Part shown: piece by piece, positions 34,021 to 38,041 of the stretch
How the letters are laid out: every line of letters starts with the position of its first letter
How positions within the stretch are numbered: the first letter of the stretch is position 1
IMG/VR virus record: IMGVR_UViG_3300027710_000852
Span: 1 to 41,480 of that record
Strand: one strand, 5' to 3'
DNA from: a virus
Length of the DNA: 41,480 bases
Notes under the pieces: model-generated
What the model was told of the DNA's origin: nothing
Seen by the model: only the letters and a program-made list of their open reading frames with translations
The model's database searches: none
Program-made: the position numbers and the translations under genes

Positions 34021-34043
34021 AGTATATCAAAGGAACAGCCAAA

Positions 34044-34805
34044 TTGTCTAAGAAACTTGGAATCATACAAACCCGGGGCCTGGGTGACATTATCATAGCT
34101 CTGCCCATAGCCCTACACTATCACGAGCAAGGGTATCACGTGCATTGGCCCGTGGTAGACGCTTGGGTAGAACAACTATCAGCCCAGGCCCCCTGGGTCA
34201 AATGGATACCCATACAGCCAGACCAGGGTGCCTTCTTCTATGACACACCCATGGAGCGTCTCAAGAACTTCAAGGTAGACGAAGTCATTTGCCTGTATCA
34301 GGCCCTGACAGGCCACCCTGAGTTTACCAGTGAACCTTGGTTCCAACACACCGCATTTGATCAGTACAAATACATACGTGCGGGGGTGCCCTTTAAAGAC
34401 AAGCTACGCCTGGCTGAATGTATCACCCGTGACCCAGCTAGAGAGGGTGCCCTCTATGATCAGCTCATAGGCACAGCCAGCCCACCCTACATTGTCACAC
34501 ATCTCAGCAGCAGTGAGCAGACCGTCAAGTATGACCCAGCAATCATACCCGAGGGTTGGATGACCATCAACATCACCAATCAGGGTCGCATATTCGATTG
34601 GATCCGGGTCATAGAGGGTGCAGAAGCGGTGATCATGACGGACAGTGTATTTGCCAATCTAGTAGATGGCCTGGACATCCAGGGTCCGGAACGTTATTTC
34701 ATCCCACAGCATCACATACAGCTATCCGCAACATTCCTGGGCAACTGGAGTTATCTCGCCAATCCAGAACTCAAGCGCGGTGCCATCATATTTGGAGCAG
34801 GCTAA
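34044..34805 (+). CDS. Glycosyltransferase family 9 (heptosyltransferase)-like protein, 253 aa
   Basis: The N terminus KLGIIQTRGLGDIIIALPIA matches the R-x-x-LGD-x-x-x-x-P start of heptosyltransferases, GT-B enzymes that build LPS inner core. The C-terminal half contains IEGAEAVIMTDSVFANLVDG, the site where the family binds the sugar nucleotide. At 253 aa it is shorter than typical heptosyltransferases (about 330), so it may be a trimmed form. TTG is used as start, with AAAGGA upstream. Base composition is GC-richer than the minus-strand cassette. Confidence 0.82.
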   Translation: MSKKLGIIQTRGLGDIIIALPIALHYHEQGYHVHWPVVDAWVEQLSAQAPWVKWIPIQPDQGAFFYDTPMERLKNFKVDEVICLYQALTGHPEFTSEPWFQHTAFDQYKYIRAGVPFKDKLRLAECITRDPAREGALYDQLIGTASPPYIVTHLSSSEQTVKYDPAIIPEGWMTINITNQGRIFDWIRVIEGAEAVIMTDSVFANLVDGLDIQGPERYFIPQHHIQLSATFLGNWSYLANPELKRGAIIFGAG

Positions 34806-34806
34806 C

Positions 34807-35184
34807 ATGAGAATACTAGCACCCATAAGCCTGGGCGAGTTAATCGACAAGATCACCATACTGGAGCTCAAACAAGAGTATATCACTGACCCAGCTAAGT
34901 TAACCAATGTAGAACACGAACTAGATGAGCTCAATAACATTTTGGGCAACCTACTTATTAAAACACCCCTACAGGATGAGCGCGAAGCGCTAAAAGCGGT
35001 AAATCGTGCGCTATGGCACATAGAGAACTTCAAACGTGAGTGCGAGGGCAACGGCCGCTTTGATCGTGCGTTCATTGAAGCTGGTCGTGAAGTCTACTTG
35101 AAAAACGATGAGCGTGCCCGTATCAAACGTGAAATCAACACTCTCACAGGTTCAGCGATTGTAGAAGAAAAGAGCTACAGTTAA
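34807..35184 (+). CDS. DUF6165 family protein, 125 aa
   Basis: MRILAPISLGELIDKITILE followed by LKQEYI and a long helical body is the DUF6165 signature. Family members lie beside LPS or capsule glycosyltransferases, as here, one base after the GT stop; their molecular role is not known. I start at the ATG at 34807, which keeps the family N terminus. Two long helices around a short LWHIENFKREC segment complete the protein. Its end overlaps the convergent 35181 gene by 4 nt. Confidence 0.85.
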   Translation: MRILAPISLGELIDKITILELKQEYITDPAKLTNVEHELDELNNILGNLLIKTPLQDEREALKAVNRALWHIENFKRECEGNGRFDRAFIEAGREVYLKNDERARIKREINTLTGSAIVEEKSYS

Positions 35185-36092
35185 CTCAGTCGCAGACTTT
35201 CGAACTCAGTGAATCCGTGGGCCAGCAAGAGATCAAGGTTGGTCTGATGCCAATCAACTATTCCCTCGTGGAATTCTTGATGGTCCTCAATGTGGAAACG
35301 ATCAGCTAGGTAATGGGGTTCACAGATAATTCGACGTAGATCTAAGAGGCTGCCCCCGTGTTGCCGCACATGTTTTAGATAGCCCACAGACTGGGCTTGA
35401 TGCAGGGAAGGCTGAAAATAACCGTGATACAACTGCGAAGCTGTGAGCTCAAAGGCCTGTTCCAGGGTCAACGGGTTGTCCTTGACCACCAAAGCTCTAT
35501 ACAACACAAAAGAAGCGTGATGCAGGTCGTGATCCAGCATGTATGCTTGAACCTCATCCAGTGAATACCTACCTTCCAGCGCGGTAATACCACGTGCTGT
35601 GCTGTGTGCTAGGAATTGACTGGGAGTTGCCCGGACCTTGATCACAGTCAGGGCCTGTGAGTATTCTCTCCAAAGCCCCACAGAGGTTAAAAAATGGCAG
35701 GGATGTTCAGTGAATAGTTCAGCTTCTACCTTGTGCATACGAAACAAAGGCACCCCACTGAGCTCAAAGAACTGCTCACAGTCAGACAAATTAGAGTCAG
35801 TGACCAATTCAGCTTGGACTAAAATGTCAATGAGATTCTGTCTGGATCCAACTTCAAAGGGCAGTTTATTCATTATATACCCATATAGTTCTGGATAGGC
35901 AATCATGGTGCGATTGAGCTCGGAGTTCACAGTGGACTGGGTTTGTTCCGCGTGTCGATGAACACTGCTGTATTGTCCAATTCGATTGGAGAAGAACTCG
36001 CCACCCTCACCCCCACTGTAAACTAGGAATTCCTGTGGTCTGTCTAACAATGCATTGAGTCTAAGTAGTAGTTGAGGTTGGATCATAGTCAT
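35181..36092 (-). CDS. Hypothetical protein, 303 aa
   Basis: I do not recognise it. Early on it has QEFLVYSGGEGGEFFSNRI, glycine-rich and reminiscent of a phosphate-binding loop as in sulfotransferase-like phage proteins, but lacking the G-K-S/T. Further blocks are HPCHFLTSVGLWREYSQAL and a His-rich C-terminal third (HIEDHQEFHEGIVDWHQTN). I use ATG 36092; a TTG 12 nt upstream overlaps the 61-aa gene. Composition is GC-rich like the neighbouring GT. Confidence 0.65.
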   Translation of the reverse strand: MTMIQPQLLLRLNALLDRPQEFLVYSGGEGGEFFSNRIGQYSSVHRHAEQTQSTVNSELNRTMIAYPELYGYIMNKLPFEVGSRQNLIDILVQAELVTDSNLSDCEQFFELSGVPLFRMHKVEAELFTEHPCHFLTSVGLWREYSQALTVIKVRATPSQFLAHSTARGITALEGRYSLDEVQAYMLDHDLHHASFVLYRALVVKDNPLTLEQAFELTASQLYHGYFQPSLHQAQSVGYLKHVRQHGGSLLDLRRIICEPHYLADRFHIEDHQEFHEGIVDWHQTNLDLLLAHGFTEFESLRLS

Positions 36093-36096
36093 ATAT

Positions 36097-36282
36097 TTAC
36101 TCAAACAAGTCTTGATCTCTACGCCTAGTCAACTCTGGATCTATAAGGTAAGCCCAAGCTAGCTCAGTCTCCCGTATATACATACAAACACCCACGGTCT
36201 GTGCTTGAGTGTATACAGCAATAGGATCAAAACGATCTAGCTGATCACCACTGTAATAACTGTGTACGCAACATAATCTCAT
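36097..36282 (-). CDS. Hypothetical protein, 61 aa
   Basis: Small protein, unrecognised, starting MRLCCVHSYYSGDQLDRFD with two early cysteines and a charged C terminus (LTRRRDQDLFE). There is no Shine-Dalgarno, and no clear promoter in the AT-rich upstream region. Its stop lies 4 nt before the ATG of the 303-aa gene, or overlaps its TTG start. Coding status is moderate. Confidence 0.5.
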   Translation of the reverse strand: MRLCCVHSYYSGDQLDRFDPIAVYTQAQTVGVCMYIRETELAWAYLIDPELTRRRDQDLFE

Positions 36283-36714
36283 AGTGTATATAGTTATACA
36301 TGAAACTGCCCAAAGCTACCCTAGAGAGCGACTAGATCATATATACATAACTCACTGTGAATACAGTATAGCATACAGTGAATAGCTATGTATACACTCA
36401 AATACCCCGCTGTAGCCCATAGTGGTCTTGCACATAGAGCACAGTATATATAGCGTGTATAGGGAGAATACCCCGCTGTAGGGGCCGTCAGGGGGCGGTG
36501 GGAGAAGGGTGGTCTATGGTGGGAGAACCTGGGGAGAAAGTTGGAAAAGTTTGGAAAAGTATTTGACTATAGCCTCTCAACCCCACCATGACCTCACGAT
36601 TTCTACTCTAAAAAACCGTGGAAAAGGCTGTCAAACTGCCCCAAATTGGTGGAAATTCCGGCCAAAATCTCCTGAAATCTTCCTATTTTTGTCACTTATT
36701 AGCCACACTTTTGG
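36283..36714. other. Repeat-rich non-coding region, possible origin or control region
   Basis: No convincing gene. It contains AATACCCCGCTGTAG twice (about 36401 and 36470), two tandem TTGGAAAAGT units (36542-36561), further GGAAA motifs, the inverted pair CACTGT/ACAGTG near 36350-36380, and many alternating TA/GT tracts (TATATAC, GTATAG). Such direct repeats plus AT-rich tracts suit a replication origin or a binding region for a regulator. I cannot choose between these from the sequence. Confidence 0.5.
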
Positions 36715-36743
36715 TTGCTCTTGAACCAGTTCTAGTGTATAAT
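36715..36743 (+). promoter_or_regulatory. sigma70-type promoter for the tRNA
   Basis: TTGCTC and TATAAT are separated by 17 bp, with the tRNA beginning 32 nt further on. The same -35 hexamer, TTGCTC, is used by the promoter at 40980. Confidence 0.7.
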
Positions 36744-36775
36744 TACTGTATGCACAGTAGTATATACTATGTATA

Positions 36776-36852
36776 GGGCCGTTAGCTCATTAGGTTAGAG
36801 CAGTGGACTCATAATCCATTGGTGCGGTGTTCGAATCACCGACGGCCCACCA
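36776..36852 (+). tRNA. tRNA with anticodon CAU, probably tRNA-Ile2 (reads AUA)
   Basis: A complete cloverleaf is visible: acceptor GGGCCGT/ACGGCCC (7 bp), D stem GCTC/GAGC, anticodon stem GTGGA/TCCAT with loop CTCATAA, T stem CGGTG/CACCG with TTCGAAT loop, and an encoded CCA end. It is not an initiator tRNA: the first pair is G-C and the anticodon stem lacks three G-C pairs. The TTAGCTCA start and GAGCAG...TTGGT layout look more like tRNA-Ile2, whose C34 becomes lysidine to read AUA, than elongator tRNA-Met. AUA is common in the AT-rich genes here. Confidence 0.93.
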
Positions 36853-36853
36853 T

Positions 36854-37092
36854 AGTGTATATATACAGTATATAGAGTTGATAAACCCGAGGATGCAGGA
36901 TATATGCTGAAGCTAGAGATCAGGAGCTAGAAGTCTGGGAGATCTTGAATGACAGATGAGGGGCGACCTAGTCTAACCGTTACTGCGCCTAACCAATAAC
37001 CATATTCTTCTAGTGGTTAGGGCTCATTATCGAGAGATAATAGGAATAAGTTGGCGGGGATTATATAACGACACCTGCGTATATATAATACT
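36854..37092 (+). ncRNA. Candidate structured RNA downstream of the tRNA
   Basis: No gene reads through this stretch. Its two ends can pair: AGT plus TATATATAC (36854-36866) with GTATATATA plus ACT (37079-37092), 12 bp with a small bulge. Inside are GCAGG/CCTGC (36895-36899 with 37074-37078), CCTAACCA/TGGTTAGG (36988-36995 with 37014-37021) and ATTATC-GAGA-GATAAT, a stem with a GNRA tetraloop (37026-37041). It begins one base after the tRNA CCA and ends where the strong hairpin starts, so it is probably transcribed with the tRNA and processed. Much of the terminal helix is TA-alternating, which weakens the case. Confidence 0.5.
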
Positions 37093-37131
37093 GATAATAG
37101 GGATAATGTTTTTGGCATTATCCCTATTATC
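37093..37131. terminator. 16-bp perfect hairpin, probable terminator
   Basis: GATAATAGGGATAATG, a 7-nt loop and CATTATCCCTATTATC pair perfectly. Only CTTT follows on the plus strand, so termination may depend on stem length. It ends the tRNA transcript and lies 8 nt beyond the stop of the convergent 48-aa gene, so it can serve both strands. Confidence 0.7.
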
Positions 37132-37138
37132 TTTAATA

Positions 37139-37285
37139 TTATTCTTCGTCTATATAATAATCAAATGCACTAGCTAATGCATTAAATGCATCCTGTATGT
37201 CGACATTATCCTCATAATCCTCCATAATAATGTCTTGCATTTGCAACATTAAGCTAGTAAGTTTATCTTTAGTATTATCTGACAT
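37139..37285 (-). CDS. Small acidic hypothetical protein, 48 aa
   Basis: It starts at ATG with AAGGAAAC upstream and encodes an acidic helical peptide (MSDNTKDKLTSLMLQMQD...) ending DEE. I do not recognise it. It lies 25 nt after the 86-aa gene in the same AT-rich operon, and its codons are AT-rich, unlike the plus-strand early genes. Confidence 0.7.
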   Translation of the reverse strand: MSDNTKDKLTSLMLQMQDIIMEDYEDNVDIQDAFNALASAFDYYIDEE

Positions 37286-37310: not shown

Positions 37311-37571
37311 TTAAACAAATTCTATATTATCTGTGCGACAGTGCTTTTTAGCAGTTTCTGTTAAACGAGATACTTCTGCTTGTAACTCCTCATAATTAAT
37401 ATCTCCGCTAACATAAGCGCATTTTGCTTGTGTTGGGAATATATGCACAATATCCCCATTTTCTTTAACTTTAGTATGTACGTTAAATGCGACAACTAGT
37501 TTATATAATTCTTTTTGTTTATTATAAACAAGTTTTGCTTTAGCAAGTGTATTAAATGCAGTACTTAACAT
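37311..37571 (-). CDS. Hypothetical protein, 86 aa
   Basis: Well-supported gene: a consensus promoter, an ACACTAAAAAGGAG leader and ATG. The protein is helical with a basic N-terminal half (LAKAKLVYNKQKELYKLVVA) and an acidic C-terminal helix (YEELQAEVSRLTETAKKHC). I know no family for it. It is AT-rich like the 97-aa gene at 41038, which suggests both come from a different source than the flanking early genes. Confidence 0.8.
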   Translation of the reverse strand: MLSTAFNTLAKAKLVYNKQKELYKLVVAFNVHTKVKENGDIVHIFPTQAKCAYVSGDINYEELQAEVSRLTETAKKHCRTDNIEFV

Positions 37572-37702: not shown

Positions 37703-38041
37703 ATGGACACAAACACTAACACTCGTAAGAAGCGCACCGACCGCAATCATATTATATATGAGCTGGTCGTGAATGGCAAGAACTACATTGGTGTGACAGC
37801 TAAGACTGAGTCCACTGTCAACAAGAGCGTTCTAGCTCGTGCCGCAAAGCATTTTTATCGTGCAAAGACTGAGACCAAGAACTGGCTCTTGTGTGCAGAG
37901 CTTCGTAAGCTGGCTGACAAGTCAGAGATAGAAGTATACGTGCATGAGATCATACGTGGCAAGAGTGCCGCACACAAGAGGGAAGTTGAGCTTCGCAGGA
38001 TGCTCAAGCCTATTTTAAACACTGACACTAGAGGAGATTGA
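37703..38041 (+). CDS. GIY-YIG nuclease-like protein, 112 aa
   Basis: The motif pair IIYELVVNG and NYIGVT marks a GIY-YIG domain, followed by a conserved basic stretch (LARAAKHFYRA), then HKREVELRRM with the metal-binding Glu, and a closing LKPILNT. Such small single-domain nucleases cut DNA and occur free-standing in phages. The ATG lies 7 nt after the -10 box, so the message looks leaderless; no Shine-Dalgarno is present. A longer upstream reading would run through the promoter, so I reject it. Confidence 0.8.
   Translation: MDTNTNTRKKRTDRNHIIYELVVNGKNYIGVTAKTESTVNKSVLARAAKHFYRAKTETKNWLLCAELRKLADKSEIEVYVHEIIRGKSAAHKREVELRRMLKPILNTDTRGD

Follow-up and report, generated by a model that had tools for sequence, protein, structure and literature searches.

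What lies between a viral tRNA gene and a strong hairpin some 240 nt downstream, and if it is an RNA, what would that RNA do? The question is raised by IMG/VR virus record IMGVR_UViG_3300027710_000852, whose full 41,480 bases constitute the window analysed here. An initial annotation of this DNA placed a second structured RNA directly behind a tRNA with an encoded CCA, ended it at the hairpin, and suggested that it might be co-transcribed with the tRNA and processed from it. We identify the tRNA, the hairpin and, between them, a conserved RNA whose structure is backed by covariation (Table 1). The original observation is thus confirmed in part, and much of the fold proposed with it is wrong.

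Results

A structured RNA between a tRNA and a terminator-like hairpin

Both ARAGORN and Rfam find a single tRNA in the window. The promoter-like site ahead of it has a weak -35 box (3/6), which a scan requiring 4/6 does not list; the same hexamers and spacing recur in L003, L006 and L008, and L009 has TTGCCC-17-TATAAT. Among the 24 distinct members of the family described below, 14 have a promoter-like site (at least 9/12) before the tRNA or the RNA, against 2.1 expected. A terminator-like site follows directly 3' of the RNA in 21 of the 24, against 1.4 expected in shuffles, and the hairpins behind the RNA in L073, L084 and L115 have no T-run. In the window this hairpin could equally serve the minus-strand ORF 37139-37285. 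In all 24 members, all three forward frames of the core are interrupted by at least one stop codon.

Table 1. Features of the tRNA-RNA locus, in window coordinates
Feature	Position	Strand	Remarks
Promoter-like site, upstream of tRNA	36715-36743	+	TTGCTC-17-TATAAT; 9/12 consensus
tRNA	36776-36852	+	Anticodon CAU (Met or Ile2), CCA encoded; ARAGORN and Rfam agree
AU-rich spacer, tRNA to RNA	36853-36882	+	Outside conserved fold; variable
Structured RNA core, 212 nt	36883-37094	+	AAACC...UACUGA; covariance models R1, R2
P1	36886-36889 with 37055-37058	+	CG/GC switch at third pair; GC/UG/UA at fourth
P2	36891-36898 (one bulge) with 36983-36989	+	7/7 pairs changed on both sides; 89.9% paired
P2a	36906-36911 with 36951-36956	+	86.0% paired
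P2b	36917-36921 with 36941-36945	+	5/5 pairs changed on both sides; 98.3% paired
P2c	36923-36925 with 36934-36936	+	Third pair from scan of all column pairs
PK1	36927-36933 with 37007-37013	+	5' loop strand CTAGAAG; perfect Watson-Crick in 24/24
P2d	36965-36973	+	3-bp hairpin, triloop NUA; 3/3 pairs changed on both sides; 100% paired
P3	36993-36998 with 37050-37054, and 37047 past AA bulge	+	6/6 pairs changed on both sides; 100% paired
P3a hairpin	36999-37017 (stem 36999-37002 with 37014-37017)	+	Loop contains PK1 3' strand 37007-37013 (CTTCTAG)
PK2	37019-37021 with 37074-37076	+	5' strand AGG with CCU of P4 loop; 24/24 paired
P3b hairpin	37026-37041 (stem 37026-37031 with 37036-37041)	+	GAGA loop in window; 6/6 pairs changed on both sides; 94.6% paired
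P4 hairpin	37060-37089	+	Heptaloop; 10/11 pairs changed on both sides; 97.7% paired
Terminator-like hairpin at RNA 3' end	37093-37131	+	18 pairs, tail rich in T; found on both strands

The non-coding region upstream of the tRNA (36517-36775) aligns along with the RNA region in L003-L008, the whole match having 79-83% identity. Further upstream lies a gene with a glycosyltransferase-like GLGD motif, recognised by eye (34043-34805 in the window; 7494-8237 in L056). It shows the strongest enrichment of any neighbour, standing upstream of the RNA in 16/24 RNA-bearing and present in 2/37 RNA-less loci, which is most simply put down to shared ancestry; the comparison of these 24 and 37 loci singled out no gene as a partner. 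Positions 1-33000 of the window contain genes for a 919-aa collagen-repeat protein, an ATP-dependent DNA ligase, a Nol-like carbamoyltransferase, radical SAM proteins and sugar epimerases, perhaps a cluster for surface or sugar modification.

Occurrence of the RNA among related viruses

Relatives were collected with protein baits and sequence patterns. The small minus-strand ORF 37311-37571 led to 12 related viral contigs, of which 7 conserve the sequence behind the tRNA and L010 has it in strongly diverged form; patterns from the conserved parts added L028/L056, L061 and L064. One degenerate pattern returned 44 stretches, 3 of them with the RNA by nhmmer (L028, L036, L056), and another returned 12, of which 8 had it and 4 did not. 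ORF 37703-38038, GIY-YIG-like by eye and with no Pfam or PHROG match, has 511 relatives; among the best 80, the RNA is present at 30 loci, one copy being truncated where its contig stops. A further pattern, which yielded L165, L166/L177, L171 and L178, matched 19 stretches, with the RNA in 6 of the 17 searched and the other 2 on contigs already positive. The best 80 of 374 relatives of a second protein family (71 searched with model R1, 2 searched separately, the remaining 7 on contigs already positive) gave the RNA-bearing L237 and L254-L256, and the protein at 35181-36104 brought up no relatives as bait. A final signature search of the viral collection brought up no new contigs, its 16 stretches all falling on ones where the RNA was already known. 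Full-length copies thus occur in 42 IMG/VR records including the window, as 24 distinct sequences that were all kept, with L108, cut by a contig end, excluded from the count; pairwise identity among the 24 is 41-99% (median 53%).

The RNA is single-copy in all 21 RNA-bearing records that were searched over their full length. Whole-record searching found the RNA in 16 of 32 records, one of the 32 being an unrelated pattern match, and the broader model R3 found it in 5 of 35, the 30 negatives including T4 and 14 earlier negatives. With so many records of related phages lacking it, the RNA is not shared by the group as a whole, bearing in mind that fragments can miss it. The RNA-less loci L088, L089, L101, L104, L106 and L113, and likewise L120, L121, L123, L125, L128 and L141, have tRNA-Met, -Arg and -Leu upstream of the neighbouring ORF, where RNA-bearing relatives have one tRNA and the RNA.

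The carriers are probably large tailed phages, as judged from two kinds of protein match. A terminase domain was found in two of seven RNA-bearing records tested, those of L166 (156 kb; the protein matches phage large terminases in PHROGs) and L256 (151 kb). Short, weak matches to the T4-type capsid protein Gp23 occur in three of six RNA-bearing records tested (G001-G006), that of G004 being just above the cut-off over 30/376 positions; a strong Gp23 match lies in an RNA-less relative. Searches of phage isolates returned 761 records, among whose 20 listed matches all fell on the tRNA part of the query, then 14 records matching the tRNA part only, no match in two other searches, and 6 and 2 records with short matches at E 0.7 or worse in two more. 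GTDB genomes gave none by protein and one by pattern (L269, in which model R2 detects no RNA at E up to 10), and no host was found in these isolate and GTDB searches.

Covariation supports a conserved fold

Taken alone, the 240 nt behind the tRNA fold unremarkably (z = -0.66; 43 of 200 shuffles have as good a free energy), so the argument from a single sequence fails and relatives are needed. A z of -3.39 is reached only when the hairpin is included, and the energy signal therefore comes mainly from the terminator. The nested consensus lies about 5 to 31 kcal/mol above the unconstrained fold, the energies of the two pseudoknots described below (PK1, PK2) being uncounted, and the minimum-energy fold recovers 32/52 consensus pairs in the window and 0/51 in L171.

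Comparison across members tells a different story from energy. In a sequence-only MAFFT alignment of 10 members (A4), the 60 proposed pairs are 96.2% satisfied, against 84.6% in shuffles, and 34 pairs are changed on both sides, against 11.7. A second sequence-only MAFFT alignment takes in 12 members, 8 being divergent (A5, a subset of the 24), and is 87.9% paired against 62.3%, with changes on both sides at 53 of 65 pairs against 40.2. All 24 members, fitted to the model (A9), are 95.9% paired against 64.7%, with 58 of 65 such pairs against 45.6. None of 500 shuffles attains the observed value on any of five measures in any of the three alignments. These shuffles ignore relatedness; a control that takes account of it, sliding one pairing partner by 1-3 columns, lowers pairing to 35-43% in the alignment of 10 and to 32-40% in that of 12. 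Judged by such comparison, the fold is preserved across diverged phage sequences from environmental samples. The RNA is conserved among related phages and its pairing goes beyond TA-rich pairs, the two points on which the initial annotation had staked its case.

Covariation backs helices P1, P2 with P2a-P2d, P3 with P3a and P3b, and P4. The fold is weakest at the inner end of P2a, whose innermost pair is open in 13/24, and at the fourth pair of P1, open in 5/24. P2 and P2a are 65.1% and 51.4% paired in the alignment of 12, figures that we put down to misalignment of the helix because the model-fitted rows pair well. The P4 heptaloop carries ACYUG in most members and ACUCG in L237, and 29 unpaired columns are conserved in at least 23/24 members.

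Against this structure, the earlier proposals divide. The GNRA-capped stem is real and corresponds to P3b, although the GNRA loop is lost in some relatives. Of CCTAACCA/TGGTTAGG, the conserved part is ACCA/TGGT, the stem of P3a, and nothing more; the AGG of TTAGGG pairs with the P4 loop instead. The stem said to close the whole RNA, TATATATAC (36858-36866) with GTATATATA (37079-37087), lacks conservation. Its 3' strand is taken up in P4, and its 5' strand falls in the spacer behind the tRNA, of which 4 nt are left in L028 and L064 and 7 nt in L009. An early guess of our own, that CAGG pairs with CCUG of the P4 loop, was superseded by P2 and PK2 after covariation scoring.

Two loop contacts are conserved by compensatory change

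PK1 is a 7-bp contact between the tip loop of the P2 arm and the loop of P3a. Comparison establishes at least seven perfect Watson-Crick pairs in all 24 members, built from some ten different cores of 7 nt, such as CUAGAAG/CUUCUAG, CUUACCA/UGGUAAG and CCGGAAG/CUUCCGG; in L165 the two strands are swapped (CUUCUAG/CUAGAAG). Pairing in PK1 amounts to 100% on A5 and 97.6% on A9. The 16 distinct string pairs, each represented by a single member, were put to a permutation test. The strands matched their own partners over a mean of 7.6 against 4.2 with those of other members, where 10% of wrong matches still run to 7; in 20,000 permutations the true total was never attained.

PK2 is a 3-bp pseudoknot that ties the P4 loop to the P3a/P3b junction, with variants AGG/CCU, AAG/CUU and GAG/CUC; two of its three pairs vary across the 24 sequences, one of those in a single member. 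When 21,797 column pairs of A9 were scored, the top 10 all belonged to the proposed structure and 18 of its pairs outscored all others. The two best-scoring pairs outside the first structure, both Watson-Crick, were PK2 and the extension of P3 past the AA bulge. Because PK2 and the extensions of P3 and P2c were found by this scoring, their counts on A9 are a non-independent test; on A5 they hold in 12/12, with one of the three PK2 pairs varying there.

The RNA is apparently a gene in its own right

A CAU tRNA stands just upstream of the RNA in 20 of the 24 distinct members, with a tRNA-Leu between the two in L010. Across these 20 the spacer varies in sequence and in length, from 4 to 47 nt. 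L073, L084, L114 and L115 have no upstream tRNA, and promoter-like sites end 18 nt before the RNA in L073 and 16 nt before it in L084. These four members argue that the RNA is not merely a tRNA by-product, and the suggestion that it is essentially a product of tRNA processing does not hold. Co-transcription, the other half of that suggestion, fits the shared strand, the promoter-like site before the tRNA and the terminator-like hairpin after the RNA. Such an arrangement suggests a separate gene, usually transcribed together with a tRNA.

No match among the RNA families searched

A cmscan search against 4227 families of Rfam 15 found, at gathering score, the tRNA alone in the window and nine further RNA-bearing loci. 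At E up to 5, the matches besides tRNA in the window, L010 and L165 lie below gathering scores and include neither GOLLD nor ROOL, those to the tRNA-to-hairpin stretch of the window being far below; L115 has no match at all. In the openly licensed literature that we searched, nothing was recognisable as the RNA at 36883-37094.

Discussion

We propose that this is a stable, non-coding phage RNA that acts in trans, being made by the host RNA polymerase, released from the tRNA and bound to a partner, a reading that we consider moderately likely. The host polymerase most likely transcribes tRNA(CAU) and RNA jointly from a sigma-70-like promoter and would stop at the terminator right behind the RNA. 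RNase P cutting at the tRNA 5' end and an endonuclease such as RNase E cutting in the AU-rich spacer would then release the RNA. It would fold as two arms on the short P1 stem, with the P2 tip loop docking on the P3a loop through PK1 and the P4 loop docking on the P3a/P3b junction through PK2. Such a fold would expose a core of invariant unpaired bases as the site at which a protein or RNP, of host or phage, would bind during infection, the nature of this partner being a guess. The compact, double-locked fold, the 29 conserved unpaired positions, the RNA's own terminator-like hairpin and the lack of an evident cis target together make a trans-acting, partner-binding RNA the best reading.

The arrangement of PK1 bears directly on this proposal. 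We infer a contact within one molecule, yet the covariation is equally compatible with pairing between two, in which case the RNA would multimerise through 7-bp kissing loops into a ring, chain or cage. PK1, with 7 bp and almost no linker in the P2c loop, resembles known kissing pairs, and loop-loop pairing is also how phi29 pRNA multimerises. Going by helix lengths, the P2 arm exceeds the P3 arm, and an internal PK1 would need a sharp bend; this need for P2 to fold back leaves room for self-assembly. PMC12286853 describes ROOL and GOLLD as assembling with the aid of kissing loops, but also gives raiA RNA, which is similar in size at 205 nt, as a monomer, and the comparative data bear no sign of a multimer. 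We think multimerisation unlikely. A fuller version, in which these RNAs are a small phage class that is made early, beside a tRNA, and self-assembles via PK1 into a defined ring or cage, like the GOLLD and ROOL nanocages but more compact, strikes us as rather unlikely.

Other roles fare less well than the trans-acting, partner-binding RNA. A ribozyme that cleaves, ligates or acts like RNase P on the tRNA or another RNA would suit the multi-helix core, the two pseudoknots, the well-kept unpaired positions and the adjoining tRNA in 20/24 members; with no ribozyme match in Rfam, a spacer variable in length and sequence, and four members without the tRNA, it is distinctly improbable. An RNA acting at a replication origin, as pre-primer or origin regulator, is very improbable. 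In the window the RNA does lie roughly where a mostly minus-strand block gives way to a plus-strand block, and DnaA-box-like TTATCCACA repeats, a possible replication origin, follow just behind its terminator in L010 (8 boxes, 6 exact, about 11 or 22 nt apart, at +242 to +351 relative to the RNA 5' end) and L171 (4 boxes, 2 exact, at +253 to +296). The other 22 members, however, have no such cluster, with 0-5 near-boxes within 1.5 kb, some of which are terminator stems; the window has no exact box, the two exact boxes of L003 are upstream, at -204 and -194, and the terminator stands between RNA and boxes. A cis-acting riboswitch or attenuator, with the terminator switched by the fold, could account for a conserved core that resembles a ligand pocket and for the hairpin directly behind it. 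Against it, minus-strand ORFs lie between the RNA and the next plus-strand ORF in the window, which has its own perfect consensus promoter (TTGACA-17-TATAAT) and so speaks against a cis-regulator, and no riboswitch is among the Rfam matches listed for L010, L165, L115 and the window at E up to 5; we rate this reading as highly improbable. Strings in L010, L028 and L064, which we take to be reminiscent of cobalamin riboswitch boxes, had brought up that class, but no cobalamin match is among those listed by cmscan for L010 at E up to 5, and in this member CCGCAACTG falls largely in P2 and GGAGACCTGCC in P4 of the covarying structure; for cobalamin-type control, the window offers no co-directed gene without its own promoter. 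Finally, that there is no functional RNA, the AT-rich sequence beside the tRNA folding by chance, agrees with the weak free-energy signal of the window alone and is contradicted by the covariation in the alignments of 10, 12 and 24 and by the PK1 test, which leave it hardly credible.

The RNA constitutes a further tRNA-linked phage RNA family with no detectable homology to GOLLD, ROOL or the T4 RNAs rnaC and rnaD. An RNA derived always from a tRNA transcript would be expected to have the tRNA in every member, which is not the case here. Like GOLLD and ROOL, the RNA is phage-encoded, linked to a tRNA (20/24), pseudoknotted (PK1 and PK2, by covariation) and non-coding. In the relevant parts of PMC12286853, those two are phage RNAs near tRNA islands, with no function described there and with cages aided by kissing loops. 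GOLLD, as presented there, is non-coding and elaborately folded, lies near tRNA islands in phages and prophages and has one studied member downstream of a Met-tRNA; many of its members exceed 800 nt, in contrast to 212 nt here, and the Rfam scans gave no GOLLD match. ROOL is likewise described in that source as phage-encoded, often near tRNA islands, with kissing loops and pseudoknots, but its studied member is 659 nt (PMC12286853) and the scans gave no ROOL match. The raiA motif RNA has a comparable 205 nt and a defined tertiary fold, though it is a monomer according to the same parts of PMC12286853 and likewise has no match in the scans.

T4 rnaC and rnaD (species 1 and 2) are small RNAs encoded immediately behind a tRNA, where the T4 tRNA cluster ends, but they are two genes, of 139 and 119 nt. 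We know of no described function for either. Homology was not borne out, model R2 reaching at best 2.1 bits over the region and R3 finding nothing in the T4 genome. In T4 rnaD (L270 1554-1672, minus strand), AAACCGGG starts at the sixth base, a short way behind a tRNA CCA. The phi29 pRNA is another phage RNA with loop-loop pairing, as covariation indicates for PK1, but the Rfam scans gave no pRNA match and the gene in the window adjoins a tRNA. At 212 nt the RNA is small enough for chemical probing, mutagenesis and cryo-EM, and its patchy presence in related phages together with its tRNA-less members makes a role in tRNA biology, a protein partner and self-assembly directly testable against one another. 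Several phages, then, place elaborate RNAs beside their tRNA genes, and the RNA of this window adds a family to them.
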